In this document: piece by piece, positions 286 to 57,274 of the stretch
How the letters are laid out: each line of letters begins with the position of its first letter
How positions within the stretch are numbered: position 1 is the stretch's first letter
Origin: Rugalucina vietnamica
Taxonomy: Eukaryota > Mollusca > Bivalvia > Lucinida > Lucinidae
Length of the DNA: 64,000 nt
Assembly: GCA_964017185.1 (NCBI GenBank)
Contig: OZ024869.1
Coordinates: forward strand, 63,316,931 to 63,380,930
Direction: 5' to 3'
The notes under the pieces: model-generated
What the model saw: only the letters and a program-made list of their open reading frames with translations
Database searches by the model: none
What the model was told of the DNA's origin: nothing
Position numbers and translations under genes: made by a program

Positions 286-425
286 GATTGGTACTCTGCT
301 AGCCCTGGGTTTTGGAATGTACATGTCAGCATGTCGTCATATGGCTACAAGTAAAGTATGGTGGCTGTTAGGAACAGCAGGTTTTGCCTCCCTGTACTAC
401 CTACCAACATGGTCAGGCTACTGTG
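286..425 (+). CDS. CWH43: CWH43 exon (first visible), membrane segments
   Basis: The acceptor is tttgtgtttcactag/G and the donor is tactgtg/GTAAGT. The exon starts as the third base of a codon and ends after the first base of a codon. It encodes [19 protein letters not shown] and then [20 protein letters not shown], two hydrophobic stretches fitting the polytopic N-terminal part of the family. Its last 74 nt (352-425) are the parent copy of the adjacent minisatellite. Phase 1 at the end matches the exon at 22643, which supports a 22-kb intron. Confidence 0.85.
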
Positions 426-3400
426 GTAAGTATGGTGGCTGATAGGCACAGCAGGTTTTACCTCCCTGTACTACCTACCAACATGGTCAGGCTACTGTGG
501 TAAGTATGGTGGCTGATAGGAATAGTAGGTTTTACTTCCCTGTACTACCTACCAACATGGTCAGGCTACTGTGGTAAGTATGGTGGCTGATAGGAACAGC
601 AGGTTTTACCTCCCTGTACTACCTACCATTATGGTCAGGCTACTATGGTAAGTATGGTGGCTGATAGGCACAGCAGATTTTGCCTCCCTGTACTACCTAC
701 CAACATGGTCAGGCTACTGTGGTAAGTATGGTAGCTGATAGGAACAGCAGGTTTTGCCTCCCTGTACTACCTACCAACATGGTCAGGCTACAGTGGTTAG
801 TATGGTAGCTGATAGGAATAGCAGGTTTTACCGCCCTGTACTACCTACCAACATGGTCAGGCTACTGTGGTAAGTATGGTGGCTGATAGGCACAGCAGGA
901 TTTGCCTCTCTGTACTACCTACCAACATGGTCAGGCTACTGTGGTAAGTATGGTGGCTGATAGGCACAGCAGGTTTTACCTCCCTGTACTACCTACCAAC
1001 ATGGTCAGGCTACTGTGGTAAGTATGGTGGCTGATAGGCACAGCAGGTTTTGCCTCTCTGTACTACCTACCAACATGGTCAGGCTACTGTGGTAAGTATG
1101 GTGGCTGATAGGCACAGCAGGTTTTGCCTCTCTGTACTACCTACAAACATGGTCAGGCTACTGTGGTAAGTATGGTGACTAATAGGAACAGCAGGTTTTA
1201 CTTCCCTGTACTACCTACCAACATGGTCAGGCTACTATGGTAAGTATGGTGGCTGATAGGCACAGCAGATTTTGCCTCCCTGTACTACCTACCAACATGG
1301 TCAGGCTACTGTGGTAAGTATGGTCGCTGATAGGAACAGCAGGTTTTGCCTCCCTGTACAACCTACCAGCATGGTCAGGTTACTGTGGTAAGTATGGTGG
1401 CTGTTAGGCACAGCAGGTTTTGCCTTCCTATACTACCTACCAACATGGTCAGGTGACTGGTAAGTATGGTGGCTAATAGAAATAGTGGGTTTTGCTTCCC
1501 TGTACTACCTACCAACATGGTCAGGCTACTGTGGTAAGTATGGTAGCTGATAGGAATAGCAGGTTTTACCGCCCTGTACTACCTTCCAACATGGTCAGGC
1601 TACTGTGGTAAGTATGGTGGCTGATAGGAACAGCAGGTTTTGCCTCCTTGTACTACCTACCAACATGGTTAGGCTACTGTGGTAAGTATGGTGGCTGATA
1701 GGAACAGCAGGTTTTACCTCCCTGTACTACCTACCAACATGGTCAGGCTACTGCGGTAAGTATGGTGGCTGATAGGCACAGCAGGTTTTGCCTCTCTGTA
1801 CTACCTACCAACATGGTCAGGCTACTGTGGTAAGTATGGTGGCTGATAGGAACAGCAGGTTTTGCCTCCCTGTACTACCTACCAACTTGGTCAGGCTACT
1901 GTGGTAAGTATGGTGGCTGATAGGCACAGCAGGTTTTACCTCCCTGTACTACCTACCAACATGGTCAGGCTACTGTGGTAAGTATGGTGGCTGATAGGAA
2001 CTGCAGGTTTTGCCTCCCTGTACTACCTACCAACATGGTCAGGCTACTGTGGTAAGTATGGTTTCTGATAGAAATAGTGGGTTTTGCTTCCCTGTACTAC
2101 CTACCAACATGGTCAGGCTACTGTGGTAAGTATGGTGGCTAATAGGAACAGCAGGTTTTACTGCCCTGTACTACCTACAAACATGGTCAGGCTACTGTGG
2201 TAAGTATGGTGACTAATAGGAACAGCAGGTTTTACTGCCCTGTACTTCCTACCAACATGGTCAGGCTACTATGGTAAGTATGGTGGCTGATAGGAACAGC
2301 AGGTTTTGCCTCCCTGTACTACCTACCAACATGGTCAGGCTACTGTGGTAAGTATGGTGGCTGATAGGCACAGCAGGTTTTACCTCCCTGTACTACCTAC
2401 CAACATGGTCAGGCTACTGTGGTAAGTATGGTGGCTGATAGGAACTGCAGGTTTTGCCTCCCTGTACTACCTACCAACATGGTCAGGCTACTGTGGTAAG
2501 TATGGTTTCTGATAGAAATAGTGGGTTTTGCTTCCCTGTACTACCTACCAACATGGTCAGGCTACTGTGGTAAGTATGGTGGCTAATAGGAACAGCAGGT
2601 TTTACTGCCCTGTACTACCTACCAACATGGTCAGGCTACTATGGTAAGTCTGGTGGCTGATAGGCACAGCAGATTTTGCCTCCCTGTACTACCTACCAAC
2701 ATGGTCAGGCTACTGTGGTAAGTATGATAGCTGGTACTGGTAGGAACAGCAGGTTTTGCCTCCCTGTACTACCTACCAACATGGTCAGGTTACTGTGGTA
2801 AGTATGGTAGCTGATAGGAACAGCCGATTTTGCCTCCCTGTACTGCCTACCAACATGGTCAGGCTACTGGTAAGTATGGTAGCTGATAGGAACAGCAGGT
2901 TTTGCCTCCCTGTACTACCTACCAACATGGTCAGGTTACTGTGGTAAGTATGGTAGCTGATAAGAACAGCAGATTTTGCCTCCTGTACTACCTACCAACA
3001 TGGTCAGGCTACTGTGGTAAGTATGGTGGCTGATAGGCACAGCAGGTTTTACCTCCCTGTACTACCTACCAACATGGTCAGGCTACTGTGGTAAGTATGG
3101 TGGCTGTTAGGAACAGCAGGTTTTGCCTCTGTACTACCTACCAACATGGTAAGGTTACTGTGGTAAGTATGGTGGCTGATAGGAACAGCAGATTTTGCCT
3201 CCCTGTACTACCTACCAACATGGTCAGGCTACTGTTGTAAGTATGGTGGCTGATAGGCACAGCAGGTTTTGCCTCTCTGTACTACCTACCAACATGGTCA
3301 GGCTACTGTGGTAAGTATGGTGGCTGATAGGAACAGCAGGTTTTGCCTCCCTGTACTACCTATCAACATGGTCAGGCTACTGTGGTAAGTATGGTGGCTG

Positions 3401-4961
3401 ATAGGCACAGTAGGTTTTACCTCCCTGTACTACCTACCAACATGGTCATGCTACTGTGGTAAGTATTTGTGGCTGATAGGCACTGCAGGTTTTGCCTCTC
3501 TGTACTACCTACAAACATGGTCAGGCTACTGTGGTAAGTATGGTGGCGGTTAGGAACTGCAGGCTTTGCCTCCCTGTACTACCTACCAACATGGTCAGGC
3601 TACTGTGGTAAGTATGGTGGCTGATAGGAACAGCAGGTTTTGCCTCCCTGTACCACCTACCAACATGGTCAGGCTACTGTGGTAAGTATGGTGGCTGATA
3701 GGCACAGCAGGTTTTACCTCCCTGTATTACCTACCAACATGGTCAGGCTACTGTGGTAAGTATGGTGGCTGATAGGAACAGCTCTGTCGTCCGTCCATCC
3801 GTCCGTCCACAATTTCAAAGTTCTTCTCCTCTGAAACCGCCGACCAATCAAAGCCAAACTTCATGTGCAGCATCCTTACAGGGAGGACAAAATATTGTAT
3901 AAATGGTCCAGGTCACATGACCAAGATAGCCACCATGCCCATATGTGGTAAAAACCATAAAAAATCTTCTCCTCTGGAACCTTCTTCTGAAATCTTCTTC
4001 TCCAGAACCAGAAGGCCTATGATTTTGAAACTTGATATGAAGCATGAGGGGGAGGGGCTCTACAAAGATTATATAAATCATGACCCTGGGATGACCTTGA
4101 CCTATTTTACGGCAAGATCAGCATAGGTTGCCCATGCATTTGAATGAGGAAAATTGTCAAAATGTAATTGAAGGGAAAAACTTTATGGAAATGGGCAAAT
4201 GGACAGAAGATTTATGATTCTGAAAAATATGGACCCCAGAGGCAGGTCTTCCCCCACCCCGGGGCAATATACATGTATATTACCATAATATTTGAAGATC
4301 TTCTTCTCTGAAACCGTTTGGCCAATCAAAGCCAAACTTCATGTGGAGCATTCTTAGGAAGGGATAGTCCGGCAGAGAAACAGCATATTTTTGGTGGACC
4401 TGGATTTGCGGTGTATAGAAAATGTTTTGACTGATAATGATAGCCAACACCTTCAGGAACAAGAATCCACTTGATGCCACCTTGTCACCCTTGGGCAACT
4501 CCCATAATTCAAGATGGCGTCCAAGAGGGTTGCAATCTGATAAAACCTTACAGATCTAAGCAGTTATAGTGCAAAATCATGTGTTTCCTTATCAGATAAA
4601 GTCCATGAGTGATACATAGGTATCAGATTGTGGAATAGTTGCACTTTCATAGGCATTGTGTAATTGAAAAATGATAATGGCATCCAAGACGGCCGTCAAA
4701 ATTAAAAAAAAAATGAATTTTCAACTGAATTCCATAATTTTACATTATTTGTTACTTTATAAGTGGTATTGAATACGAATATGCAACAAATGAGCCCAGT
4801 GGATACCCTTGGGTAATTAAATTAATTCAATATGGCATCCAAGAGGGTTGTCATCTGTTATTATCATACAATAGCCCCTTATAATGCAGTATAGTGTATT
4901 ATCAGATATAGTCCACCAATGTCAAAAATGTATCATTTTCTGATAAAGTTGCACCCTAATG

Positions 4962-5010
<49 letters not shown>

Positions 5011-20000: not shown

Positions 20001-23000
20001 CAGGCTCTAAAAATGGTGTTTTAGGCTGCTTAAATGAGATCATATGTAGCCTAGATAAGTCACTGTTCCATGCTGCAGTTAATTTATTACAATGTAACGT
20101 GTGGTTGCAAATTGAAGGAAATCTTGACTGCAAGTAACATTTAATTTCTTTGGTGCCTCTTTCCATGGGGCTACGGACTCTACAGGCCATGCAAAAAGTA
20201 TAACTGACCGTATCAGCAGTCTTTTCAATTTCTTGACAAAAACAGACTCTACACAAAAATGATGATTTTTAAAGAAACAAGTACTCTTCATTGTGAGGAT
20301 AAATTCAACTTTCATTGATTCTAAACTTTCCTATGACTTCACAATGAAAGACTGGATAAATAAACAATCATTTTCTAATCATGGGTGTAATTTTTTGACC
20401 AGCCAACTAAAGACACCAAGAAAAATGGAAAATCATGACAAGAGTACAGTTTCACTTTTTTAGTCATATCTTTGTTATTTGTTGTCCAAATTTAATTCCG
20501 TAAAAAGTATATTACATGGGACATATGTGCCTTTAATATTACATGAATATTGGACCTTACTTATGATTGAACATAAAAGTATACCAGCTTAGAAAACACT
20601 CAAAATAAAAGTGCAACATCATATGTGAAAAATGGTGATTTTTGGACATTTATTGCCTTGCTATAGCAAAATGATGCATAGAATATCCTTTTGTTATACA
20701 TCGCCAGAAAGCTTATTACCTAAGTGTTATGGTAAAATAAAAACATTTATTCTCGGATAGTATCCTATTGAATTATATGCGCATAACATGGCATAGTTGG
20801 TAAAAGCAACCCTGATCGTGACTCAGCTGATTTGTCCTCTGGTTTGTTTATAAAATGTATTTTCACATTTTGTCAACAAAAAATAAATGTGTATAATTCG
20901 GCAAATAGGTTACTGTATGGGCGGTTACCTCATGAAAACGTTATAGGGTATGGTCTACTTTTGACCATACATGTGATACATTCTTAGGCCCAAATAGGGA
21001 GATTGGACATTTTTGGTAGGGAGATTTAGGTCTGAAATAGGGAGGTTTTTTCTCGACAAAATTATAGCCGATTTTACCCCGGAAAATATTTTCAGCAGTC
21101 CAGCATTTTGTCAAATGTTTGCACTTCAATATGCATATACAACTGATTCTCCCAAATCTATAGATGATTACTTAAAATTAGAATTTTATTATAATTATTG
21201 AAAGTAATTTAATTCTGGTTGTAAGACATACTTGAATACCAAATGGATAATGATAGCTTCCTTCAACAGTAGTTCATTGATAAAATAAGTAATTGTGAAA
21301 TTAGTAAATTATTAAGTTTGTATAGGTTTGAAAAGGAAATTACATGTAGATCTATTTGAAAAAAAAAATCTAAATTGTGCAGAAAAGAAAAAGAGAAATA
21401 AACTAATGCAAAAAAGAGGTTTGAAAAAGAGAAATAAACTAATGCAAAAAAGAGGTTTGAATGTGAAAAGAGGAAAAAAAATATCTTTTTTCAAAAAAAA
21501 AAAAAAAAAAAAAAAAAATTTGCTCCAGCGGAGATTCGAACTCACGACCTCCCGCGTGACAAGCCAACACCTTAACCACTGCACCACTTGGCCATGATGA
21601 CGTCATAGCACTCCAGCATTTGACCAGACGTAAAAAGCACATGGTTTATGTTTACACAATAAATAATTGCATATAAATGGAAAGCTGTGTATTGTCATTT
21701 GTTTACTTCGAGTCTTAGAACAAGTTATTGGAACATGTTGGAATAGTGTTTTGGAGTAATATTATTGGGATTATTGCTTTTTTGAAGGTTGGTGTATTTT
21801 TTTTTTATCAAGCTCAAGACAAACCCCAATGATCACCGATCAATCAACCATGTCAACTGATGATCCTTACGTAAGCTTACTTGACATCATCAAATCAAGT
21901 ACGACAATTACCTAGCACCTTATAGCGTTAATCCAATTACCTGAGGCCAATTATCACACCTGTCACTTCACAGTACGAAAATTCGTCGAGTAGGCGCTGT
22001 AAACATTCTGCCAAACGATCTTTTTGGGGAAAACTAAAAAAATGGTGGCTTGCGGAAAAACACCATAGGAATTTTTCTTCGTCGGGTTTTAGGTTTTTAT
22101 ATCGTGAGAGCGTTTTTGGGACCAAAATATCGGGAGATTCACGATCAATCGTTAGATATCACATGTATGCTTTTGACCTAGGCAAAAGCTAAAGGTATAC
22201 AGTTGAGAGACTCAACTCAAATGTTTTCCGTTAGAAAATAAGAATGATATACAAGTATGTCTAATTCACTAAATTGGGCAAAATACAGGTAGCTGATCTT
22301 TAATGGTAAATATGTGACAGCGCTCTAGGCTGACTGAGTCCGAATTTTCTATAATCTCCCTACTTGAACAGATGGACTAGCCAACCATGCCCAGATATAT
22401 TAAAGTTGCCGCCTAGACAGTGACCTATTTGCCGAATTAAATTTGCTTATGTAGTAGGCATAAATTTACTTAACAAGTTGAGGTCTTAACAATGACGTTA
22501 AGCTAACTGAGTTTTGAACAACTGGCCCCTGGGCAGTAATGCAAACAAATAAAAATTACATTGTTGAGAGAGATGTAACAAAATCCTTCAAAAAGAGTAT
22601 TTACATATGTCATATCAAATTGTCTGTTGTTGTTGTGTTTAGGAGGCCTAGTGTTAGCAGTGTATACCATGTCAGTCTGGCCTGAGATGACAGAGCGTCT
22701 GTCCCGGTGTCATCCTGCCCGATCAGTGTGCTTGCTCATCATAGTCTACCTGGTGGAGATGTTCTTCTCCGTGTGGACAGTGGCCTATAACTTTGTGCCA
22801 GGTGGAGTCTATACAAGGGAGAGAACTGATATCACAGTCTTCGGAGTTATGCTTCTCATTTTCCTTGGATTGTTTGTTGGTGAGTTGGTCAAACTTAAAA
22901 TTAGACTTAACCTATGTTATTTACAGTGAAAAATATGTAACTACCAGTATTACAGGTTTTTGTAAAAATCATCTTCATTCGCTCTGAGATATTCTTTTTT

Positions 23001-35000: not shown

Positions 35001-38000
35001 CATTCACATAATATTCATATTAAAACAAAAAGAAACATACCTATTTTAATTTCAACATATCCTCTATAAATGCTGTGAAAACGAATATATTGTACTAAGA
35101 CACAATAAAAATATGTTCATTACAGAAAGGTGTGGTACAGGTACCCAGAGCACGCCAAAGCCAAAATGACGTTGCAATAACGTCAAACATTATTCTGATC
35201 CAGTTGGCGATGATCTCACTTTCTCAGCATAAACACCAACAATAATTATGTATTTTATCTGTCTGCCCATCCTTTTGTAATAAGTTTCCGTGACCAGTAT
35301 CAGTACGTGGTGATACAGCTCCCTGAGTCTATTTTGCTAATATTTTCTGCTGAATTATCAATTTTTCGCAATTCTTAATGGCACACAATTCCACTTCAAG
35401 ATGGTTTCTTCGTATATCGTCGTCACTTGATTTTATTCCACTGTTAAAACATGAGAGTCATTTGTACATAAACACTGAACTTCATTATTCATAGTTTTCC
35501 AAGTTGTTTGACCATTTTAAGTGTTTCTGTGGGTGTTTTGTGAAGAAAGCGTATAATTTCTTAATCCTTCGCAACTCAACGATATTGTTTGACGTCATGG
35601 TTTTCCATACAACCCTCGTAATAATGGGCCATTACTTTTTTGTGGAACATCAAATTGATTTAAAATTTTCAAGAAATAATGTTATGTTGTAGAATATTAC
35701 ATGACGGTTCCATGCTCTTCTGGTGATGAGCAAACAGTCAGAAATTATGTTTATTTCTTTAAGACTTCGTTTTAAAAAGTGACATTTTTCGGACTGCTCC
35801 GGGTACAGATGATGACGTTGCCACAGGAGCCTGTATTTTTGGTTTCACCGGTCACTTTTCTTTCATTTTTCTATCAACAATTAAGAATAAGTGGAAGTTC
35901 ACACACACCAACTTTCCAGTACAATGTATGAAAAGAGAGTTATAACACAATTACACGAACTTTCCGATCAACCTACGTATATACTTAATAAGTGTACATC
36001 TTAACTCTTGCATTATGTCGACAGTGCAGCTGATCTTCATCTCAAATGTCTTCATATATGAGCCACTGCATCAGAAAACCAACAATCTGCATATGCGAAA
36101 ACAAAGATGCAGATCAGCTTCACAGTAAATGCGAAGCTGATCAGCATCTTTGTTTTCATTACACGGATAGTACAACTCTTCTTCTTAAATACTTAAATTC
36201 AAGCTTCTAACCTTCTTCTGTGTTTGTACAGCCGGGTTTGTGTAGGACCTGGTTGGAACCCAAATTGTGGGTTTTCTCATGCACAGGCTCATTATTAGAA
36301 AAGCTGGTTTCTCATCCTGATGCTCATAAAGTGAGGGACAATTTAGCTCTCACATTGCCCAAATATCTCTTGTGAGTTGGCTCACGAATTTCCTATTATA
36401 GGAGAACTGGCCCCAGGACTGACTATAACAGTGAATGTCTCTGGTAGTCTAGTAGACTTTGTAGTAACACACATGGGTAACGACAGAGATAGATTAGACA
36501 GAAAACTACAGGCTGAATTCCTCGCTAATGAACTGAAAAATTGGTAAGCTTTGCCTTTCATTATTGGCGTATTGATGCTTGCATTCTTAAATAATTATAA
36601 TCTTTACAAAAGTGTACAATGTCAGAAACATAAAGATGTGAGAGATATAAGAAATAGGATAACAAACAACAATGCTACACTTAAAGACAAAAGAAACACA
36701 GCACTTGGTTAATCTCATGTACTTCGGAAACGGCTGATTCAAATTATGACTTGTGACTTTACTTCAGTTAACTGGCTTCTAACCTACATTCTATGTAAAT
36801 TTCATTGTGACATACCAACAACTAATAATGATTTTATCATGTCAAATGTCATAACCCACAAGTTCAATTTTCATGAAATTTTACTACTTCTGTATCCTAT
36901 ATTGACCAGCATAAAAGCAAGTCATGCATATCTCGAGTATACAAAAGCAATAACGATATTATTCTTTCAAAGCACAAGTCTAGACAAGAGCCTGACATAA
37001 CATTTTTATGTTGATGCTGTTGATGTGCATCAAACATCTTTTGAGTTCTGCACCTGCGAGGTCACTGTGGATATTTGTGAAAATCTCAAAATCATTATTG
37101 TAAGTGAAAAATGAACTTGTGAGTATTAAACTTTGAATTTCGGGAATCTTTTATGGTAAAGCATACTGAAATTCACAAGATACATTCATGTATGTATGCA
37201 AGGTGCCAAAAAGAAATTCAGTAATCCCAACATTGTTGTGTGAGTTAAACTTTATTGCCAGCAAGTTCATTTTTCACATGCTTCGAAAATCTCGTAAATA
37301 TCCAAAAAGTCATCCTGTAAATGTTTGTATAGAACTCATAAGACACTTGCATACACTTCAACAACATGGAAACCACAATAAAAATTATGTCAGATTCTTG
37401 TCTTGATATGATGAAGAAAATGCCTTTGAAAGAATGATGTTGCTATTGCTAATCTGTATCCTTCAGATAGGTATGACTTGCTTGTATGCTGGTCAATGGG
37501 GGATACAGAAAATAGCTAAGAATTTTGAAAACTGCACTTTTGAGTTATGATTTTTTAGGTTATAAAATAAGGGTAGGCTGTAGGTATATCATTATGAAAT
37601 TTACACAGAATGTCGGTAAGAGGCTAATTAATCGAAGTAAAGTTACAACTTAAAATTTGAATTGGCCATTTTCCAGTTACATGAGATTAACCAAGTGCTG
37701 CATTTCTTTTGTAACATCTAAATCTAGTAGTGAGGTATTTTTCATTCTAAATACTTACCCAATATTTTAGTGAGAAACCAGATGTATTTTATGGGCTATA
37801 TAACAAACAGAGCTGAAAGAAACACTCCATTCTAATCAATTTTGACCATGTTTCAGTGAGAATCCAGTTGTATTCATGGGCTATGTAACATCCAAGCCAA
37901 GCAGTCAGGAATACTCTACACTGATCAATGATGGTAATGTGAAGGATATAGATGCTACAGACAGGAAAAGATTCTGTGAATATATCATGTACAGAGGACT

Positions 38001-41000
38001 CAAACGGTGAGATTGTGTTTGATTTTAGTTGTGCTAAAGATAGGAAGATCATGGAATGCATCAGCATGGACATTCAGCTAGTTCTATCGCGTAATTGCAG
38101 TATAAACAACATTGGTCCTGATTGTTGACATAACAACAAAACCTGTTCACAATTGGCAAATACATATACATTAATAGTTTTTTTAGCTCACCTGAGCCAA
38201 AGCCTCTCAGGTGAGCTTATAGAATAGGCAGGCACCCGGTGTCCATCCGTCCCCATCTGTCCGTCGTCGTCCGTCCGTTGTCGTCCACCATTTTCAAAGA
38301 TCTTTTTCTCTGAAACCTGTTGGCCAATCGGAGCCAAATTTTACATGAAGCATCTATAGGAAGGGAAAACCAATGTGTTTATAAATATCTTGGTCACATG
38401 ACTAAGATGACTGCCATGTCCATTTATGGTAAAATCCCTTCAAAAATCTACCTCTGCGGAACAGCTGGACAGATTGTAGCATTAAGACTAGAGTAGTACA
38501 AGTTTATAGAATGTACTCGAGCCCATGTCCATCTGTCTGTCTGTTCACATTTTCAGAGATCTAATTCTCTGAAACCGCTTGGCCAATCAGAGCCAGATTT
38601 TATACAAAGCATCTACAGGAAGGGGGAACCAATATGTATATAAACAATCCAGGTCACATGACTAAGATGGCCACCATGCCCATATATGGTAAAACCCTTA
38701 AAAAATCTTCTACTCCAGAACAGCTGGACTGCTTTCAAAGAAACTTGGCATGTAGCATTGGGACTGGGGTACTACAATGTGTTTATAAATCATTACCCTG
38801 TGATAACCAAGACCTATTTAACAGGAAGATCAACAAAGGTCACCCATGCATTTGAATGGGGAAAGTTGGTCACAATGTACATGTATGCCTCTTGCAGAAA
38901 ATGGGCAAATGGACTGAGATTTATGATTCTGAAAAAAAAAAGAATCCCATGCGTTGGTTTGCCCCCACCCTGGGGTAATAAACATGTATATTGCCATAAT
39001 ATATGAATATCTTCTCGGAAACTGCTTGGCCAATCAAAGCCAAATATTGTAGGAAGCATCTATAGAAAGGGGGAACCAATAAGTTTATATATAAATACTA
39101 ATCCAGCGGACGAAGATGACCACCATGTAAAAACCCTTCAAAAATCCTCTCCAGAGATGCTGGGCTGATTTCAATTAAATTTGGCATGTAGCATCAGGGA
39201 CTAGAGTATTACAATATATTTTTAAATCATGACTCTGTGATGACCATGAATGATTTTACGCCAAGGTCAACTTAGGTCACTTAAGCCAAAAACTGTCAAA
39301 ATGTCACTGAAGGGGAAAACTTCAGGAATATTTATGATTCTGAACAAAAGTGCCTCCCACCCAGAGCCTTTATACATGTATATGACCATAATAGTGAAAC
39401 AAGTTTATTGGTATATATCCCAGATCTCAGGTGATCGTTTATAGGACCATTGGTTCTCTGGTTCTACAATGTACCACTCATCACCATCATTGTATTATTT
39501 TATATTATGCATGAATATTGAGCTACAGTATTGAGAATAAAAACAAGTTTGTAATTTGTTACTTTGCTTGATGGAAAATGATGAGCTGTTCCTTTTGGAT
39601 TCCATAGTATCTAATCTTTAAAGAGAATTTCATTTGTTTTTATGTTTCTGAAATTTCAGTATATGGTTCCTCTAGATTTTGTACAGTTATCCCCTTAAAT
39701 GAATGTATCAATGTTTCCTTTCAGAACTGGCTATGCCAGGATAACCCACGGAGGTTTGAGTGACACTGAGGTCCAGGTTGGCAGGTTTGAGATACCAGAC
39801 AGTGGGGAGTACCAGGATAATGTGAAAACTACAACAGATCCTGAGGATGTTCCTAAACATGTCAGGTTTAGTGATAGGTAAGGGTGGGTAGAAATATCAC
39901 TAAGATTTTAGAACCTGCAGTAAAATGAAGAAGGTAAGGGTGGGTAGAAATATCCCTAAGATTTTAGAACCTGCAGTAAAATGAAGAAGGTAAGGGTGGG
40001 TAGAAATATCACTAAGATTTTAGAACCTGCAGTAAAATGAAGAAGGTAAGGGTGGGTAGAAATATCCCTAAGATTTTAGAACCTGCAGTAAAATGAAGAA
40101 GGTAAGGGTGGGTAGAAATATCACTAAGATTTTAGAACCTGCAGTAAAATGAAGAAGGTAAGGGTGGGTAGAAATATCCCTAAGATTTTAGAACCTGCAG
40201 TAAAATGAAGAAGGTAAGGGTGGGTAAAAATATCCCTAAGATTTTAGAACCTGCAGTAAAATGAAGAAGGTAAGGGTGGGTAGAAATATCACTAAGATTT
40301 TAGAACCTGCAGTAAAATGAAGAAGGTAAGGGTGGGTAGAAATATCCCTAAGATTTTAGAACCTGCAGTAAAATGAAGAAGGTAAGGGTGGGTAGAAATA
40401 TCCCTAAGATTTTAGAACCTGCAGTAAAATGAAGAAGGTAAGGGTGGGTAGAAATATCACTAAGATTTTAGAACCTGCAGTAAAATGAAGAAGGTAAGGG
40501 TGGGTAGAAATATCCCTAAGATTTTAGAACCTGCAGTAAAATGAAGAAGGTAAGGGTGGGTAGAAATATCACTAAGATTTTAGAACCTGCAGTAAAATGA
40601 AGAAGGTAAGGGTGAGTAGAAATATCCCTAAGATTTTAGAACCTGCAGTAAAATGAAGAAGGTAAGGGTGGGTAGAAATATCCCTAAGATTTTAGAACCT
40701 GCAGTAAAATGAAGAAGGTAAGGGTGGGTAGAAATATCACTAAGATTTTAGAACCTGCAGTAAAATGAGGTCTTCATTCAAATGTTGGATTTTTTTCTAT
40801 ACATTTCTATTGGGGCATTAAATAATAAGTCAAAAACAACTGTTGGTGTAAAAAACACGCTAATTTGGAGTTAATAAGTACTGTGTAGGAGTTACTGGAA
40901 TAAGAGAAATAACCTTGGTATATAGCTCAGATGCACTGTCCACATTAAAAAAATGAGGTCTTATTAAGTCTCCAGTAGAGAGACATCTGTAGAGCACAAG

Positions 41001-41533: not shown

Positions 41534-42441
41534 AAGTTTTGTATTAAAAGAAAGTGTTATACAATAAAACAATTGTTGACTATTGAGTCATTGAATATGA
41601 TGTGATATCCAACAGAGACTACCAATATTGACCGAGGCGAATATTGGTAGTCTCTGTTGGATATCACATCATATTCGGTCAATATTGGTAGTCTCTGTTG
41701 GATATCACATCATATTCAATGACTCAATAGTCAATAATTGTATAATGTTGCATAATCATATTACCCTCTGATGTCATATTCGCCTAATTGTGCAGTGGCA
41801 CTTGTAGTCACATGTGTTTGTCATGTGGCATGTCGTTAGTTTGTTTCAAAAGTGGTTTTGGTATAATAAAACAATTGTTGCCCTTGAGTGAGGGTGACAT
41901 GATGATTTGTTCACTTTCGACAGGTTACACTGCCTCGGGTGAACAAATTATCATGTCATCCTCACTCAAGGGCAGTAGTTGTGTAGTGTTACCATTCTGA
42001 GATAAGTTCTTGGTAGGTGATAAAAACAAAGCATTAGAAATAACACTAAGGTATGCTGTGCTTGGCACTGCTTAGATGTTTACCATAAATTATTTAATGA
42101 CAGAACGGTAAGATATTTCTCCTGAAGAAAGCAGTATGGTTGGATATGGTGAAAAGTACAACATGACAATAGTTTGTGTTGGTGTGCAATTTATGCACAA
42201 CACTAATTAAAAAAGAATGGTTGTTTTTGTCAGATTTTGTTTTTGCATAAAATGTAAACTCTGTTTACCCATTATAAAATTGAGAAATTGAGACAACCAT
42301 AGTGAAGGAGTTTTGCTGCATTTCCATCTTTTGTATCATTTTGATTATGTAATTTTCAGATTTGGAGGGTTCTACCCAGGCCATGGTTACTTCTCAGACC
42401 ATAGATTCCACATGAATACACCAAAATATTTTCTGCCATAG
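286..42441 (+). CDS. CWH43: CWH43 / PGAP2-interacting protein homologue, 5'-truncated, 11 exons
   Basis: Exons are 286-425, 22643-22879, 23200-23280, 23967-24046, 27910-28015, 32226-32361, 34718-34782, 36402-36543, 37857-38006, 39725-39877 and 42360-42441. All junctions are AG/GT and the phases match at every join, giving about 456 residues to a TAG stop. The vertebrate protein is about 700 residues, so roughly the first 240 are missing to the left. The product begins with several membrane segments, has a last membrane helix before a lumenal/catalytic-type C-terminal domain of the endonuclease-exonuclease-phosphatase fold, and ends in NTPKYFLP. Diagnostic family stretches include [57 protein letters not shown] and CEYIMYRGL. 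Yeast Cwh43 exchanges the GPI-anchor lipid for ceramide in the secretory pathway; the animal role is less clear. Identity is from recalled family motifs, not a search. Confidence 0.95.
352..3782 (+). repeat. 74-bp minisatellite (~46 copies) made from an exon end plus its splice donor
   Basis: The unit starts GTAAGTATGGTGGCTGATAG and ends at gtcaggctactgtg, and the period is 74 (GTAAGT at 426, 500 and onward). The first copy, 352-425, is coding sequence of the CWH43 exon; all later copies are intronic. Copies differ by scattered substitutions and a few short indels (for example near 1455 and 2730). Nearly every copy keeps TGTG/GTAAGT, a near-consensus 5' splice site, and a pyrimidine-rich stretch ending catggtcag that looks like a 3' splice site. 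Reading past the true donor gives a stop (TGA) after five codons. The right edge abuts a truncated CTCACC-family element. Confidence 0.95.
3783..4364 (+). mobile_element. CTCACC-family element, left piece (5' truncated, split by the foldback element)
   Basis: It begins in the CCGT microsatellite (gtccgtccatccgtccgtcc), has no terminal palindrome, and runs through the family core (ctctgaaaccgc, gtcacatgaccaagatag, tgaccttgacctatttta). It is interrupted at cattcttaggaaggga. The same monomer resumes at 18361 with ggagaatgaaagtttatata, so the two pieces were once contiguous. Confidence 0.85.
4370..5275. repeat. Outer left arm of the foldback element, tandem degenerate units
   Basis: Each unit of roughly 300 bp contains a version of atggcatccaagatggcc or ggcgtccaagagggttg, a (t)cagataaagtcca stretch and catgcaacaaatgagccca. 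An (AAT)n microsatellite lies at about 4961-5008. The same units appear inverted at 17186-18350 (gccatcttggatgccatttt). Confidence 0.75.
7672..8104. repeat. Cluster of CCCTGATGTAAC motifs in both orientations
   Basis: TCCCTGATGTAAC occurs at about 7678, 7871 and 8027, with a variant at 8043. It recurs inverted as GTTACATCAGGGAC at about 8069 and 8090, forming a potential hairpin between 8026 and 8104. This resembles subterminal transposase-binding motifs of a DNA transposon, but the element boundaries are unclear. Confidence 0.5.
8388..9458. mobile_element. Possible ~1.07-kb DNA element with repeated GGTCC-ATATTACCCC motif
   Basis: The left end GGTAATTTGGGG(G)AATATGG is inverted at the right end (ccccaaattacc at 9447-9458). 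At least seven internal variants of ggtccatattacccc lie between, in both orientations, for example near 8575, 8612, 8630, 8995 and 9039. No clear target duplication was found. Confidence 0.5.
9516..11053 (-). mobile_element. CTCACC-family element, complete, three core monomers
   Basis: Read on the - strand it starts at the palindrome around 11020-11053 (agctcacctgagcc / ggctcacaaggtgagct), followed by a CCGT-type microsatellite at 10944-10997. It has three ~455-bp core monomers and ends in the hairpin AGGACC-ATT-GGTCCT with CTGG near 9516. Monomers carry catgaccaagatgg, CCATATATGG and tgaccttgacctatttta. It is inserted in the left arm of the foldback element. Confidence 0.9.
11054..13556. repeat. 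Inner left arm of the foldback element
   Basis: From about 11390 it is built of degenerate ~300-400-bp units, each with a version of tttgcatattcatgaat and a stretch such as ggctgccagtgtggtcag plus aatgccataaaatattgtcc. Matching sequence in inverted order lies at 15600-16900; for example 11640-11840 pairs with 16480-16680. No coding sequence is seen, and short open frames here are chance. Confidence 0.7.
13557..15540 (-). mobile_element. CTCACC-family element, complete, four core monomers, near-identical to the copy at 9516
   Basis: It has the same termini and monomer order as 9516-11053, with one extra ~455-bp monomer. The first 430 nt or so differ from the other copy at only a handful of positions. 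It sits close to the symmetry centre of the foldback element, so it separates the two arms. Its microsatellite is (ACGG)n at about 15440-15483. Confidence 0.9.
15541..17185. repeat. Inner right arm of the foldback element
   Basis: This is the reverse-complement counterpart of the inner left arm, with tandem degenerate units containing attcatgaatatgcaaat and ccatttttcatgaat-like stretches. The pairing is imperfect, with indels. About 16905-17185 has no obvious partner. No gene is seen. Confidence 0.65.
17186..18360. repeat. Outer right arm of the foldback element
   Basis: It contains three or more units with ggtggccatcttggatgccatttt-like sequence. The last 150 nt up to tctgccagacta are the closely matched inverted copy of 4365-4515. 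Confidence 0.75.
18361..19017 (+). mobile_element. CTCACC-family element, continuation of the piece at 3783
   Basis: It resumes the interrupted monomer and runs to the family 3' end, caggtgagcgtttacag, at 19017. There it is interrupted again. The remaining tail letters (gaccat and tgtcctctggtt) appear at 19807-19814 and about 20834-20846, after two further insertions. Confidence 0.85.
19018..19798. mobile_element. hAT-type non-autonomous transposon with 8-bp target duplication
   Basis: Its ends are TAGGGATGTCAACGAATA and the inverse tattcgttgacatcccta. It is flanked by perfect GTTTACAG on both sides (19010-19017 and 19799-19806). An 8-bp duplication and a YAGGG-type end are hAT traits. The ends are rich in gaatattcga. 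A 20-bp tandem repeat (cttgaatcaacaaagtgtca, three copies) lies at 19521-19582. No transposase frame is visible. Confidence 0.9.
19815..20829. mobile_element. 1.0-kb DNA transposon with 25-bp perfect inverted ends
   Basis: The left end starts CAGCTGAGTCACGATCAGGG and is repeated in perfect inverse for 25 bp at 20805-20829. It is flanked by ATTT at 19811-19814 and 20830-20833. It is inserted in the terminal hairpin of the CTCACC element. The longest internal open frame (119 codons, - strand) has a few Cys residues but no domain I can name. Confidence 0.85.
20966..22169. mobile_element. hAT-type element, CATACATG family, 8-bp duplication
   Basis: The ends are CATACATGTGATA and tatcacatgtatg, flanked by perfect CTTTTGAC (20958-20965 and 22170-22177). 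Subterminal copies of an agggagatt motif occur in both orientations. Internal passengers are a 33-bp tandem duplication (about 21395-21465), an A-run at 21494-21518 and a tRNA-Asp-like segment on the - strand. No transposase was found. Confidence 0.9.
21524..21595 (-). repeat. tRNA-like segment (Asp GTC-type anticodon), probably SINE-derived
   Basis: Reading the - strand from gccaagtggtgcagtggtta, it has a box-B-like gagttcgaatctcc and an anticodon loop ttgtcac. The acceptor ends do not pair, and the T and anticodon stems have mismatches, so it is not a functional tRNA gene. A T-run follows on the - strand. Confidence 0.55.
22643..22879 (+). CDS. CWH43: CWH43 exon 2 of the visible set, membrane helices
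   Basis: The acceptor is gttgttgttgtgtttag/GA and the donor is TTTGTTG/GTGAGT. It is 237 nt and phase 1 on both sides, and encodes [15 protein letters not shown], then [20 protein letters not shown] and [17 protein letters not shown], three hydrophobic segments. The polar loop [13 protein letters not shown] lies between the last two. Confidence 0.95.
23200..23280 (+). CDS. CWH43: CWH43 exon 3 of the visible set, hydrophilic linker
   Basis: The acceptor is gtccttgcag/GA and the donor is AAAT/GTGAGG. It is 81 nt and encodes a basic loop around [19 protein letters not shown]. The donor was chosen because it is the only one that keeps phase 1 for the next exon; reading on meets a TGA 26 nt later. 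Confidence 0.85.
23281..23966 (+). other. CWH43 intron without recognised elements
   Basis: This is AT-rich unique-looking sequence. I see no repeat ends, exon or RNA gene in it. Confidence 0.7.
23967..24046 (+). CDS. CWH43: CWH43 exon 4 of the visible set, last membrane helix
   Basis: The acceptor is gtttgctttag/GT and the donor is ACAAAG/GTGAGA. It encodes [20 protein letters not shown] and YSHPTK. The hydrophobic stretch matches the final helix that precedes the C-terminal domain in this family. It enters in phase 1 and leaves in phase 0. Confidence 0.95.
24290..24365 (+). repeat. tRNA-like SINE fragment
   Basis: gcctctgtggcttagtggtt resembles a tRNA 5' half with an A box, with a Lys-like loop cttttaa. 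No 3' half follows. It lies directly before the TATACCCCC-family element. Confidence 0.4.
24500..25727 (+). mobile_element. CTCACC-family element nested in the TATACCCCC element
   Basis: It starts with the palindrome agctcacctgagcc / ggctcacaaggtgagct, followed by (CCGT)n, and has two diverged core monomers (catgaccaagatggc, tgaccttgacctatttta). It ends tcaggtgagcgttctcgggaccaatggtcttctgg. The host sequence aaagttt resumes on both sides. Confidence 0.85.
26550..27237. mobile_element. DNA transposon rich in aaagggcac motifs, 5-bp flanking repeat
   Basis: The left end CAGTGCTCCAGCTAG is inverted at the right end (ctagctgaagcactg). The flanks are AATAG on both sides (26545-26549 and 27238-27242). 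Several aaaagggca copies lie near each end in opposite orientations. No open frame of note is present. Confidence 0.7.
27910..28015 (+). CDS. CWH43: CWH43 exon 5 of the visible set
   Basis: The acceptor is tctgcctttcag/ACA and the donor is GATACAG/GTAAAC. It encodes [20 protein letters not shown] and TMTLLNDTG, a strongly conserved start of the C-terminal domain. It enters in phase 0 and leaves in phase 1. Confidence 0.97.
28080..30505 (+). mobile_element. CTCACC-family element, multi-monomer, with a nested element
   Basis: The palindromic start agctcacctgagccgaaggc is followed by a CCGT microsatellite. Several core monomers follow with ctataaatagcaaaaac in place of the CArG-like stretch found in other copies. 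The 3' end is tcaggtgagcgtttacagg plus the AGGACC-ATT-GGTCCT hairpin and CTGG. It is split by the insertion at 29493-29954. Confidence 0.85.
29493..29954. mobile_element. 462-bp MITE with 32-bp perfect inverted ends
   Basis: The ends start CGTTGGCTCGTTGACAAAAC and match in perfect inverse for 32 bp. It is flanked by ATAT (29489-29492 and 29955-29958) at an interrupted gctatatacatgtat of the host element. The motif acaaaacctcgta recurs four times inside, three of them as tandem-like direct copies. Confidence 0.9.
30535..30635 (+). repeat. SINE-like fragment with box B
   Basis: gtgtgggttcgagtcctgca contains a near-perfect pol III box B. The following acatgtgagacaagccaaat is shared with the SINE-like copy at 56430. 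Confidence 0.5.
30636..31501 (+). mobile_element. ATGCCCCC-family element (Helitron/Helentron-like)
   Basis: It starts with a palindrome (atgcccccaacttcgg / gaagttgagggggcat) and has three ~185-bp tandem core units (gtaccttgtgtg near 30905, 31096 and 31278). It ends ggggcatagtg with the hairpin GTGTTT-CAT-AAACAC, attttCTAG and a T-run. No coding sequence is present. Confidence 0.65.
31502..31985 (+). other. CWH43 intron stretch, mixed fragments
   Basis: An inverted fragment of an element end (ctagaaaatgtaacacctta, about 31567) and a tRNA-like antisense piece (gggtatcgaacctgcaacct, about 31651) are visible. No gene is seen. Confidence 0.4.
31986..32193. mobile_element. Short member of the CATACATG hAT-type family, 32 nt before an exon
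   Basis: The ends are CATACATGTGATA and catcacatatatg, with several ctccctgaaat motifs like the agggagatt motifs of the larger members. The target duplication is decayed: ATAAAACT before and AAAACT after. The next CWH43 exon begins at 32226. Confidence 0.8.
32226..32361 (+). CDS. CWH43: CWH43 exon 6 of the visible set, EEP-domain core
   Basis: The acceptor is tttttccccctgcag/GT and the donor is ACATGGG/GTAAGA. It encodes [20 protein letters not shown], then [20 protein letters not shown] and TWG. The acidic LLESD lies where EEP enzymes carry a metal-binding Glu. It enters in phase 1 and leaves in phase 2. Confidence 0.98.
32550..34513 (+). mobile_element. CTCACC-family element, complete, four core monomers
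   Basis: It opens with the palindrome agctcacctgagccgttagg and CCGT runs. Monomers of about 455 bp carry ccatatatgg or a variant and tgaccttgacctatttta. It closes with ctcaggtgagcgtttacagg, the GGACC-ATT-GGTCC hairpin and CTGG. Its last monomer closely matches the first 430 nt of the copies at 9516 and 13557, in opposite orientation. Confidence 0.9.
34718..34782 (+). CDS. CWH43: CWH43 exon 7 of the visible set
   Basis: The acceptor is ctcattcttacag/G and the donor is CCTGAAG/GTATGT. This 65-nt exon encodes [20 protein letters not shown] and E. It enters in phase 2 and leaves in phase 1. It is too short to stand out without the neighbouring exons. Confidence 0.97.
34965..35977. mobile_element. 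mariner-like non-autonomous element, decayed
   Basis: The left end cgaggggcgtttggaaagtt and the right end aactttccgatcaacctacg are imperfect inverses. TA dinucleotides flank both ends (34963-34964 and 35978-35979). The cgaggggcg start is typical of Tc1/mariner ends in invertebrates. No transposase frame survives. Confidence 0.6.
36060..36290. mobile_element. GAGCC-family MITE (copy 1)
   Basis: Ends: gagccactgcatcagaaaacc and ggttttctcatgcacaggctc. The internal palindrome gcagatcagcttcacagta / gcgaagctgatcagca defines the family. The flanks match poorly (ATAT, ATTA). Confidence 0.8.
36402..36543 (+). CDS. CWH43: CWH43 exon 8 of the visible set, catalytic-type TH.GN motif
   Basis: The acceptor is tttcctattatag/GA and the donor is AATTG/GTAAGC. 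It encodes [20 protein letters not shown], then [20 protein letters not shown] and ANELKN. The VTHMGN stretch is a family hallmark. It enters in phase 1 and leaves in phase 2. Confidence 0.98.
36544..37856 (+). repeat. CWH43 intron with a ~1-kb inverted-repeat pair
   Basis: cagcacttggttaatctcat (within 36686-36722) recurs inverted at 37677-37712 with one or two changes, suggesting a decayed 1-kb transposon. The sequence between is AT-rich with no gene. Confidence 0.5.
37857..38006 (+). CDS. CWH43: CWH43 exon 9 of the visible set
   Basis: The acceptor is gaccatgtttcag/T and the donor is CTCAAACG/GTGAGA. It encodes [20 protein letters not shown], then [20 protein letters not shown] and MYRGLK. 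FMGYVTS is where canonical EEP enzymes have GDxN. It is phase 2 at both ends. An earlier near-copy (agtgagaaaccagatgtatt, 37769) is an intronic partial duplicate of this exon start. Confidence 0.98.
38183..39463 (+). mobile_element. CTCACC-family element, older copy
   Basis: The palindromic start agctcacctgagcc / cctctcaggtgagct is followed by short CCGT runs. Three diverged monomers follow, ending in ctcaggtgatcgtttatagg and a weakened hairpin. Its divergence from the other copies is visibly higher. Confidence 0.8.
39725..39877 (+). CDS. CWH43: CWH43 exon 10 of the visible set
   Basis: The acceptor is gtttcctttcag/A and the donor is AGTGATAG/GTAAGG. It encodes [20 protein letters not shown], then [20 protein letters not shown] and [10 protein letters not shown]. 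It is phase 2 at both ends. The donor is the first of 16 tandem GTAAGG donors. Confidence 0.97.
39878..40768 (+). repeat. 56-bp minisatellite (16 copies) starting exactly at the exon donor
   Basis: The unit starts GTAAGGGTGGGTAGAAATAT and ends gtaaaatgaagaag; copies are at 39878, 39934 and every 56 nt after. They are nearly identical, with two main variants (tatcactaag and tatccctaag) mixed as A C A C A C C A C C A C A C C A. Each junction reads AAGAAG/GTAAGG, a strong 5' splice site, and each unit also has ttttagaacctgcag, a plausible 3' splice site. Confidence 0.98.
40769..42359 (+). repeat. CWH43 last intron with two long perfect-type hairpins
   Basis: A 60-bp perfect inverted repeat has arms 41576-41635 and 41676-41735, with a 43-bp partial copy between. 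A second hairpin has arms of about 41872-41913 and 41939-41981. A T-run of about 43 nt lies at 41490-41532. accctctgacgtcatat-type sequence recurs near 41095 and 41764, suggesting duplicated foldback units. Confidence 0.85.
42360..42441 (+). CDS. CWH43: CWH43 terminal exon
   Basis: The acceptor is gattatgtaattttcag/A. It encodes [26 protein letters not shown] and a TAG stop. [10 protein letters not shown] is the conserved C-terminus of the family. Here it is preceded by SDH, the canonical last EEP motif. Confidence 0.98.
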
Positions 42442-42917
42442 AAAGACATGTCGGAGTGCCAAAAAGTATTTTCTGCCAAACAAAGGATTTGAATACGCCA
42501 AAGTGTCCTGCCATAGAAATCCTGCCATAAAAATATATGAGTGCCACAATGTGTTTGCTCCCAGTAAATGTGCCACATCATGAGAAAACCGGATTTTAGC
42601 ATATGCGAAAACAAAAGCCCAGATCAGGTGTGCAGTAACTGCACAGCTGATCAACCCTTTGTTTTCACTACATGGACAGTAGAATTCCCCCTCTACTTAA
42701 ATCCAAAATTTCAAGCTTCTAGCCTTCTTCAGTGACTGTACAGGCCGGTTTGTGTCAGACCTGGTGGAAAACCCCGAAGACCGGTTTTCTCATGTCACAG
42801 CTCAAATATTACATCACATGACAAGTGTGACAGATCAGATCCTGCCATAGAAATAATTTGAGCAAGCCAAAGTTTCCTGCCACTGAAACAAAATGTGTAT
42901 GCCAAATATATATGAAT
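42414..42917 (+). repeat. Degenerate ~37-nt repeats derived from the CWH43 stop-codon region
   Basis: Starting at gaatacaccaaaatattttc (coding), similar units follow the stop: gagtgccaaaaagtattttc, gaatacgccaaagtgtcctg, gagtgccacaatgtgtttg and gagcaagccaaagtttcctg. Each has a tgcca(tag)aaa core. Six or so copies are seen, split by the GAGCC MITE at 42570-42803. Confidence 0.65.
42570..42803. mobile_element. GAGCC-family MITE (copy 2)
   Basis: Ends gtgccacatcatgagaaaac and ggttttctcatgtcacagctc surround the internal gatcaggtg...agctgatcaacc palindrome. Target duplication AAAT lies at 42566-42569 and 42804-42807. Confidence 0.85.
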
Positions 42918-46830: not shown

Positions 46831-46832
46831 AC

Positions 46833-48984: not shown

Positions 48985-49450
48985 TTTTCTTTACTATGCT
49001 TCAACCTATTAACATTCATCCTATTAGTATTCAAAATATCTTGAGGGAAGGACTGAAGTAAAGAAGCTCAGAAGCTTGTGAACATAGCATTTGATTCCTT
49101 TGTTCAACTAGGACACAAAGTTAATATTACTGTAGGCTAGAAATATCAAATTCACAGAGAATTTACATTGTATCAGTTGCTAAAACAAGAGTGCTGATGG
49201 TGTTGATCTGAGTTGTTACCACATGTTTAATATTGCTGTGTTTTTTATATTTTTTTTGTATGTACATTGTATTTAAGATTGCTGTTTGAAATAAAATGTT
49301 AAAAACTGCATGCCATGTTGTTTCTATTAAATAATCTAAATTTGACAGTTAATTCTTATTAACATTAACACCCAGAATGTAAAAATATACCTTTAGTCCC
49401 AATCATCAAACAATCCAAGTCATTTTACAGCATAAAATGACAGTATGCGG
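48985..49450 (+). promoter_or_regulatory. Candidate CWH43 polyadenylation region
   Basis: AATAAA occurs at 49290-49295 after a T-rich stretch and is followed about 20 nt later by the GT-rich catgttgtttc. It is the best + strand candidate 3' end after 42441, which would imply a ~6.8-kb 3' UTR full of transposons. This is inferred from position alone. Confidence 0.35.
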
Positions 49451-49458
49451 TTAAACGT

Positions 49459-51508: not shown

Positions 51509-51601
51509 AATTCTTTTGAAAATTATTTTGATCCGGATCATCTACAGATCCGCTATTGCTACAAGTGTATAATGGTTGTCCTTGTTACTGCCAAGATTGA
51601 A

Positions 51602-55596: not shown

Positions 55597-55831
55597 GAGC
55601 CACCTCATGGGAAAACCAACAATCTGCACAGGCGAAAACAAAGACGCAGATCAGCTTCGCGGTAACCACGAAGCTAATCAGTGCTTTTTTTTTTCGCTAC
55701 TCGGATAGTACAATTCCTCTTCTACTTAAATCCAAAATTTCAAGCTTCTAGCTATTTTCTGTGCTTATACAGGCTGGTTTGTGTCAGACCTGTTCGGAAA
55801 CCACATTGTCGATTTTCCCACAAGGCGGCTC
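55597..55831. mobile_element. GAGCC-family MITE (copy 5)
   Basis: Ends gagccacctcatgggaaaac and gattttcccacaaggcggctc enclose the internal palindrome gcagatcagcttcgcggt / ccacgaagctaatcagtgc. The target duplication is AAAT on both sides. Confidence 0.85.
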
Positions 55832-56304: not shown

Positions 56305-56550
56305 ATTTGGTTGCCCCTATGGCCCAGTGGTTAAGGTTACTGATTTCATAACCATTCTTAACCATTTGTTGATCTCAATGGTGTGTCTAGTTTGAGTTCA
56401 AGCTCCACATGGGATCATGGTCTCATGTGAGACAAGCCAAGTTCTGCTTGCAGGTGTGTTTTCTGGGGGTAATCACAATTTTGCCCCAACAACTGATATA
56501 GCCCATCTTATATGAGTGAAGTAATCTTGGAAGGGGTGTAAAACATTAGG
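56305..56550 (+). repeat. tRNA-derived SINE-like segment
   Basis: gcccctatggcccagtggtt resembles a tRNA 5' half with an A box, and gtttgagttcaagctcc is a decayed box B. catgtgagacaagccaagtt is shared with 30590. Confidence 0.5.
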
Positions 56551-56746
56551 ATTTCTCTAAGATACATCTCACACATATACATAAACAATATAAAACATAA
56601 CAGACTAGAGGTATACATCACTTAAACAAGCACTACAACAATAATTTAAGTTGAAAATGCAAAACACTCTGATATACATAAATGAATGTTTCTTCTGCCC
56701 TATAATAATAATGCTGCACAATTGTCTCGCCAGATCAGAACACTCC

Positions 56747-57250
56747 CAATACACCTTGTAGATCTAAGGTCTTGGTGTAGTCTCCACAGACCAGGAGACA
56801 GAGTCTATACTCTGATCTACGCTGGCAGAATCCTCTCCCCCCCCCCCCACATACACCTCATAGATCTAAGGTCTTGGTGTAGTCTCCACAGACCAGGAGA
56901 CAGAGTCTATACTCTGATCTATGCTGGCAGAATCCTCTCCCCCCCCCCCCCCAATACACCTCATAGATCTAAGGTCTTGGTGTAGTCTCCACAGACCAGG
57001 AGACAGAGTCTATACTCTGATCTACGCTGGCAGAATCCTCCCCCCCCCCCCCCCCCAATACACCTCATAGATCTAAGGTCTTGGTGTAGTCTCCACAGAC
57101 CAGGAGACAGAGTCTATACTCTGATCTACGCTGGCAGAATCCTCCCCCCCCCCTCCAATACACCTCGTAGATCTAAGGTCTTGGTGTAGTCTCCACAGAC
57201 CAGGAGACAGAGTCTATACTTTGATCTACGCTGGCAGAATCCTCTCCCAG
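56747..57250 (-). repeat. ~100-bp tandem repeat (five copies) overlapping the last exon of the kinase-like gene
   Basis: The unit on the + strand is acacctcatagatctaaggt, then gtagtctccacagaccagg, then tctacgctggcagaatcct and a run of 9-16 C. The rightmost copy (about 57157-57247) is coding sequence plus the stop codon. The four copies to the left would be in the 3' UTR, each preceded in the mRNA sense by a long G run. Confidence 0.95.
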
Positions 57251-57274
57251 GGCTAGACGACGTTCCATCACAGC
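57173..57274 (-). CDS. Terminal exon of the kinase-like gene
   Basis: On the - strand the acceptor is ctttgcaaatag/GCT. It encodes AVMERRLALGEDSASVDQSI, DSVSWSVETTPRP and a TAG stop (57173-57175). It follows the donor at 58759 in phase 0, and the helix begun in the previous exon (EQLLSIAELLRK) continues into it. Its last 75 nt are the parent copy of the adjacent tandem repeat. Confidence 0.85.
   Translation of the reverse strand, partial: AVMERRLALGEDSASVDQSIDSVSWSVETTPRP

Follow-up and report, generated by a model that had tools for sequence, protein, structure and literature searches.

Tandem arrays at exon ends recur in several genes of Rugalucina vietnamica. We consider it probable that tandem duplication occurs throughout this genome and that duplications spanning exon edges survive because the normal product is still obtained from the first donor or stop codon. 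In the window, i.e., the whole 64,000-nucleotide stretch analyzed, an earlier note had described four arrays at exon edges; three of them are clear (46 copies of 74 bp, 16 copies of 56 bp, and 5 copies of approximately 102 bp), whereas the fourth is degenerate (Table 1).

Table 1. Exons, arrays, and related features in the window
Feature	Positions	Strand	Basis
CWH43/PGAP2IP exon, part of second transmembrane domain	286..425	+	PF23021 profile 51-96, E 4.7e-7
Array 1, 74-bp unit of CWH43 exon tail and GTAAGT donor	354..3782	+	TRF, 46.3 copies; unit alignment
Next CWH43 exon	22643..22880	+	PF23021 profile 95-174, E 1.6e-28; acceptor and frame
Degenerate duplicate of the head of exon 37857-38006	37771..37840	+	Local alignment score 45
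CWH43 exon, acceptor side duplicated	37857..38006	+	Inside PF23226 match of joined exons
Penultimate CWH43 exon, end GATAG/GTAAGG	39725..39877	+	Mostly inside PF23226 match; frame
Array 2, 56-bp intronic unit from donor, each copy beginning AGGTAAGG	39878..40768	+	TRF; unit list; 16 donors
Last coding exon of CWH43, stop TAG 42439-42441	42360..42441	+	Spliced translation ends NTPKYFLP, then stop
Array 3, degenerate copies of CWH43 stop-codon region in 3' UTR	42448..42563	+	Best copies vs shuffles
MITE-like insert within array 3	42565..42808	.	Inverted ends by eye; self-blastn
Possible extra degenerate array 3 units, weak	42842..42888	+	Best score 24, matched by 15/200 shuffles
Array 4, last codons, stop, and 3' UTR, unit of about 102 bp, about five copies	56745..57248	-	TRF; boundary sequences
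Predicted last coding exon of minus-strand gene, AVMERRLALGEDSASVDQSIDSVSWSVETTPRP and stop	57173..57274	-	Acceptor and frame fit 58760 donor

The founder of array 1 is the tail of CWH43 exon 286-425, the donor of which (425/426) joins the exon at 22643 in frame; identification of the latter exon places the array within a 22-kb CWH43 intron. The array does not start at the donor, as originally described, but approximately 72 nt inside the exon. It comprises 46 full copies, the exonic copy counted among them, plus one partial copy, and contains 45 donor-like GGT(A/T)AGT matches, 44 of which are GGTAAGT. The exonic copy reads CTGTTAG and the majority of copies read CTGATAG, with CTGTTAG also present in a few inner copies; array 1 is thus multicopy and homogenized with a diverged boundary copy, as is characteristic of the amphioxus structures called mirages. 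Judged by eye, its units take up exon sequence again near +5, and the founding match is perhaps AAG. Array 2 does begin at a donor, as the earlier note had stated: TRF calls it at 39876-40768 (56 bp, 15.9 copies), within 2 nt of the 39877/39878 boundary, and GGTAAGG is kept in all 16 copies. By eye, its founding match is perhaps AGGT, with the start at +1. Since its unit is intronic and begins at the donor, array 2 falls outside the strict definition of a mirage, and it requires no filter acting at the exon edge. A frame check of the joined exons shows that the CWH43 reading frame continues from the first donor of each of the two arrays.

Recurrence elsewhere in the genome, as the earlier note had suggested, was borne out. 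In a CNOT7-like exon, the tail and donor are duplicated to give nine donors in 53-bp steps, with GTAAG kept in eight of the nine, and by eye the units again take up exon sequence near +5; a coronin-7-like exon is likewise followed by tandem units of exon tail plus donor. The units of array 1 and of these two exons span the exon-intron boundary, as mirage units do. In the four donor arrays examined (array 1, array 2, and those of the CNOT7-like and coronin-7-like exons), reading on beyond the first donor runs into a stop codon after at most 19 codons, and none of the periods (74, 56, 53, and 58) is a multiple of 3, so that, as judged from the sequence, only the first donor would give a full-length protein. 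This anatomy fits the suggestion that selection tolerates arrays at exon edges.

Most copies retain the donor (array 1, 44 GGTAAGT; array 2, 16 of 16; CNOT7-like exon, 8 of 9), which could also reflect positive selection for extra donors, with tandem 5' splice sites serving to safeguard splicing or to regulate it. The precedent is human IFI6 (6-16), reported to have donor sites within its repeat units, the downstream units being used as donors (PMC4526556, citing Turri 1995). The shared feature is the donor within the repeat unit; in the arrays described here, downstream units would bring premature stops, and the downstream donors usable without ending the frame that define the IFI6 type are precluded by the periods and stops given above. 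In array 1, the nine donor positions vary less than the others (mean of 1.0 vs 2.2 mutated copies), but a value as low arises in 27 of 74 circular shifts, so that the donor is not clearly more conserved than the remaining unit and purifying selection on the array 1 donors is unsupported. This is the result expected if the copies are passengers, and we regard selection for extra donors as highly improbable.

The frequency of such duplication was estimated in kinase and myosin genes, which were selected irrespective of repeats. From 136 kinase and 93 myosin matches, 72 were chosen by eye, mostly with short open frames and without stops, and 70 were retained. C3:61763242 (internal stop) and L012 (stops in both orientations) were left out. 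Edges, which are predicted from motif and frame, were also left out where the splice-site score was low or the flank insufficient, giving 59 tails and 62 heads in a first sample; a second sample, in which L036 (omitted from the first owing to wrong orientation) was put back, added 15 tails and 13 heads. Downstream copies of the exon tail were found for 6 of 74 tails and upstream copies of the exon head for 2 of 75 heads, i.e., 8 of 149 edges or approximately 1 in 20. The L096 head (score 34) clears only the lower cutoff of 30 and is left out of this count. Among the eight positive edges, two belong to locus L095, and the myosin paralogs L083, L095, and L100 are not independent. In the mismatched control, which covers the first sample, 0 of 56 tails matched upstream flanks and 0 of 55 heads matched downstream flanks.

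The position of the arrays by itself is not clearly above chance, whereas the homology of their units to exon ends is real. TRF finds 18 arrays in the window, 3 of which include an exon edge or stop codon, against 2.7 expected (P = 0.53); 5 of the 18 end within one period of an edge or stop, against 2.5 expected (P = 0.08), and a six-array subset selected post hoc gave P = 0.11 for overlap and P = 0.03 for ends. In the kinase and myosin sample, TRF arrays cover 1 of 129 edges, against 3.2 to 3.4 expected. TRF arrays were thus not enriched at edges in either the window or the 129 sampled edges, and overlap of arrays with exon edges was discarded as evidence in its own right. These chance-level overlaps are what would be seen if four unrelated arrays in a repeat-rich genome had simply been noticed near edges under flexible definitions of an edge (donor or stop). 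Such a coincidence is nevertheless very unlikely, because the units show homology to exon ends and this type of structure also turns up in genes picked irrespective of repeats; the recurrence had already weakened it.

The same data bear on whether duplication is seeded at donors, the 5' splice site being a preferred breakpoint through AGGTAAG repeats or transcription-linked damage. Duplicated donor tails (6/74, 8.1%) nominally exceed the net 2.5% of intron windows, which overlap one another (P = 0.011), and the excess persists at scores of at least 80 (3/74 vs 0.8%; P = 0.02). At a score of 60, however, P is 0.11, and when the intron rate is doubled, to allow roughly for conserved exon copies decaying more slowly, P is 0.09; part of the excess is expected from this slower decay. 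In addition, among the three strongest tail cases, two come from equivalent exons of paralogous myosins, and the second sample yielded no downstream copies among its 15 tails. Donors exceed acceptors with a Fisher P of 0.17 (6/74 vs 2/75). Raw counts of GGTAAGT arrays were discarded, a dispersed GGTAAGTAGACC repeat being predominant among the matches listed. With this repeat excluded, GGTAAGT arrays gave 944 matches and the reversed pattern 364, but such numbers depend mainly on large arrays and dispersed repeats and still track array size. Among eight distinct loci with GGTAAGT arrays in the first 63.3 Mb of C1, three lie at exons, the discovery locus counted, which corresponds to P = 0.05 to 0.19 if 150,000 to 300,000 introns are assumed. 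With TRF arrays unenriched at edges and a donor excess that is small and partly expected, the process seeding duplication at exon boundaries that the earlier note had envisaged is not upheld, and donor seeding is an unlikely explanation. Slightly less likely still is a stronger form, in which the 5' splice site acts as a hotspot of duplication, with breakpoints within the U1-paired 9-mer and new arrays arising at donors at several times the rate found elsewhere, survival of the first copy applying to stop codons as well; if it held, the lineage would have a standing stock of spare donors and of sequence from which new introns could form. Some observations count against survival by the first copy, among them the intronic position of array 2. 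Plain tolerance predicts neither more duplication at donors than at acceptors nor the nominal excess over introns, and the breakpoints placed by eye near +5 (array 1 and the CNOT7-like exon) and at +1 (array 2) suggest a position closer to the donor than random. A tandem transposon-like family of approximately 455 bp was also considered as a source of the arrays; self-blastn gave no match elsewhere in the window for arrays 1, 2, and 4.

Under the preferred explanation, survival through the first copy, the joining of two short matching sequences, TGGGAG in the case of array 4, would found a tandem duplication at the edge of an exon or at a stop codon, and the array would then expand and homogenize like any minisatellite. 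The first copy would remain under selection, and its donor or stop would still yield the normal product, so that the extra copies would be passengers in the intron or 3' UTR. Duplications within exons would be purged, and those spanning an edge would survive and, with one of their copies conserved, be recognizable for longer than duplications lying wholly in introns.

By their sequence organization, the arrays resemble mirages and appear to match the lancelet type. The amphioxus structures are minisatellites over exon edges in Adh and globin that are reported not to disturb splicing; they are known from Adh3, globin, troponin C, and PGBD5, on either side of the splice site, with units of 10 to about 160 bp (PMC3087553, PMC3902484), and their mode of origin is termed unclear (PMC3087553). 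The common feature is minisatellite-like tandem copying across the exon-intron boundary; the genome is another one here, two arrays lie at stop codons, and array 1 has 46 copies. Human internal tandem repeats, also minisatellites at exon-intron boundaries, are described as lying in segmental duplications and able to alter splicing (PMC2812944); unlike the present arrays, they occur in recent gene duplicates, with about half affecting coding exons. Intron gain by tandem duplication was reportedly described by Rogers in 1989 and Hellsten in 2011. Duplication of AGGT-bearing or boundary-crossing segments, common to such intron gain and the present arrays, is reported, including for potato RdRp (PMC4974935, PMC3443670); here, the copies appear confined to existing introns or the 3' UTR, and no new intron is demonstrable. 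That mirage-like structures occur in several genes of a single genome outside the lancelets, at approximately 1 edge in 20 in a small sample, allows their rate, age, and breakpoints to be counted and permits testing whether tandem duplication regularly feeds new introns.

The stop-codon arrays, which as such lie outside the strict mirage definition, would carry the same survival rule over to translation. Array 4 was correctly described as copying the stop-codon region of a minus-strand gene: on that strand, the unit consists of the last approximately 25 codons, the stop TAG (57175-57173 by count), and approximately 26 nt of 3' UTR. TRF gives a period of 102 to 104 bp with 4.9 copies, and TGGGAG stands at both outer boundaries. 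Array 3 lies downstream of the last coding exon of CWH43, which is outside the Pfam match, and TRF gives no long array there. That it copies the CWH43 stop region holds for two copies, at 42490-42519 (score 38) and 42454-42485 (score 36), where 200 shuffles reach at most 30; array 3 is degenerate, its sequence is convincing for these first two copies only, and the similarity is weak past the MITE-like insert. Self-blastn places the insert in a set of six related stretches within the window. A further two-copy case, absent from the earlier note, is found at the acceptor at 37857, where the duplicate directly follows the second TTTTAG.

The plus strand of the window, which spans 64 kb of a genome of 1.09 Gb (47 contigs), carries part of a CWH43/PGAP2IP gene identified by Pfam, and the minus strand carries the end of another gene, for which no match was found in Pfam or PDB. 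Ten CWH43 exons were placed, with all junctions in frame except 23280/27910; three of them were placed from splice motifs and frame. Because exon 286-425 corresponds to PF23021 profile positions 51 to 96 and the next exon, 22643, to positions 95 to 174, array 1, the first of four tandem repeats at exon edges, lies at a donor whose intron is 22 kb long.

Features in the window and related repeats elsewhere in the genome
Feature	Positions	Strand	Copies or basis	Description
Array 1	354-3782	+	46 full copies x 74 bp	tail (3' end) of exon 286-425 + donor
Array 2	39878-40768	+	16 copies x 56 bp from donor 39877/39878	intronic unit
Array 3	42448-42563, weakly also 42842-42888	+	degenerate	CWH43 stop region
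Array 4	56745-57248	-	~5 copies x 102 bp	last codons + stop + beginning of 3' UTR, minus-strand gene
CWH43 exons with Pfam cover	286, 22643, 32226, 34718, 36402, 37857, most of 39725	+	7 of 10	PF23021 + PF23226
MITE-like element	42565-42808, 36055-36291, 43298-43492, 44521-44765, 55593-55802, 57344-57546		six related stretches	inverted ends by eye
~455-bp interspersed family	9638-10939, 13679-15433, 24615-25506, 28179-29459, 32628-34364			own tandem copies
Dispersed repeat	G000:C1:2685452 and other places		match listing	GGTAAGTAGACCTAGGTAGGTAGACC type
Further GGTAAGT arrays, contig C1	69137572, 69895280, 88182478, 89174887, 92485246, 95509064		pattern search
Further GGTAAGT arrays, contig C2	6708681, 53198767, 57905993, 75632742, 81446179		pattern search

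The homology of array units to exon ends is a strong argument for the earlier note's placement of four arrays at exon edges, whereas their position is not clearly above chance: 3 of the 18 TRF arrays in the window overlap an exon edge or a stop, against 2.7 expected, and 5 have an end no more than one period away from such a site, against 2.5 expected (P = 0.08). For a six-array subset picked afterwards, the P values are 0.11 and 0.03. On these figures, the argument from position is weak. In array 3, the best two copies outscore 200 of 200 shuffles; beyond its MITE-like insert, the best score is equalled or exceeded in 15 of 200. The unit of array 2 has two variants, which often alternate. Array 4 has TGGGAG at each outer boundary, as would be expected for a microhomology junction. 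The acceptor side of exon 37857 has a two-copy duplication that was previously overlooked.

Kinase and myosin exons (first and second samples) were taken from Pfam matches in this genome; the last 60 nt of each exon were aligned with 430 nt of the intron that follows, and the first 60 nt with 430 nt upstream. At a local alignment score of at least 38, 6 of 59 first-sample tails and 0 of 15 second-sample tails have a downstream copy (6 of 74 together); for heads (exon 5' ends), an upstream copy is present in 1 of 62 and 1 of 13, respectively (2 of 75 together). Mismatched pairs in the first sample predict 0.0 tails and 0.16 heads, and control alignments at this score match none of 56 tails to upstream flanks and none of 55 heads to downstream flanks. 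Inspection showed that five of the six tail copies extend to the end of the exon; those at L055, L083, L087, and L095 continue into GT, that at L060 stops at +1, and the sixth (L064) aligns inside the exon only. In the myosin genes at L095 and L100, the corresponding exon has its head and acceptor duplicated upstream, and these duplicates could be relics of alternative exons. A short intronic repeat (L069:1225-1270) has ACATCAAGGCTG in common with the kinase exon just upstream and is possibly a relic exon-derived copy.

Among 2190 overlapping intron windows from the same loci, a net 2.5% have a local copy at score 38, versus 8.1% of donors (P = 0.011); at score 80 the figures are 0.8% and 4.1% (P = 0.020), and at score 60 P = 0.11. 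Both members of an intronic pair decay, but only one member of an exonic pair does; when the intron rate is doubled to allow roughly for this, P becomes 0.09 for donors and 0.29 over all edges. TRF arrays lie over edges in 1 of 129 cases in the first sample, versus 3.2 to 3.4 expected. A process seeding duplication at exon boundaries, as proposed earlier, is not borne out by these figures and the window overlap, and array positions are not enriched there. Our cautious reading is tolerance rather than seeding, in which duplication occurs everywhere and survives across edges. There is a contrary hint of donor-directed breakpoints: by eye, the units of array 1 and of a CNOT7-like exon go back to exon sequence at approximately +5, and array 2 starts at +1.

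In all four donor arrays examined, reading on beyond the first donor runs into a stop codon in no more than 19 codons, so the full protein can come only from the first donor. In stop arrays, translation would end at the first stop, ahead of the copies. The first-made donor is chosen and mRNA is translated in the 5' to 3' direction, and because both processes run this way, a filter in which the first copy wins would act on donor and stop arrays. With such a filter, donor arrays should outnumber acceptor arrays, and stop arrays should outnumber start arrays; the former excess is weakly present (P = 0.17). Donor positions in array 1 have no clear extra conservation, which would fit copies that are passengers.

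A genome search for three spaced GGTAAGT motifs yielded two multi-copy exon cases: the CNOT7-like exon (matched in PDB at E = 9e-7), which has nine donors in 53-bp steps, and a coronin-7-like exon (E = 7e-4), with four donors in steps of 58, 58, and 44 bp within the stretch read. Of four more arrays read and judged by eye, L112 is transposon-like, L113 and L114 look non-exonic, and L111 was read without its start. The tandem-donor matches listed are mostly the dispersed repeat, which is rich in donor-like motifs.

Amphioxus "mirages," minisatellite-like copies spanning an exon-intron boundary, have the same structure (PMC3087553, PMC3902484), and human IFI6 (PMC4526556), human boundary repeats (PMC2812944), and intron gain by tandem duplication (PMC4974935, PMC3443670) are related. 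No title or abstract opening in the literature searched, which mostly excludes subscription papers, reports such arrays in a bivalve.

The first-listed MITE-like copy lies within array 3, and the last-listed is just upstream of the last exon at array 4. Runs of (GGAC)n or (GTCC)n frequently flank the ~455-bp family, and a member with 27 self-blast matches adjoins array 1 on its 3' side at 3783. In 49436-50943, two overlapping frames hold open frames that look reverse-transcriptase-like by eye in the translations.
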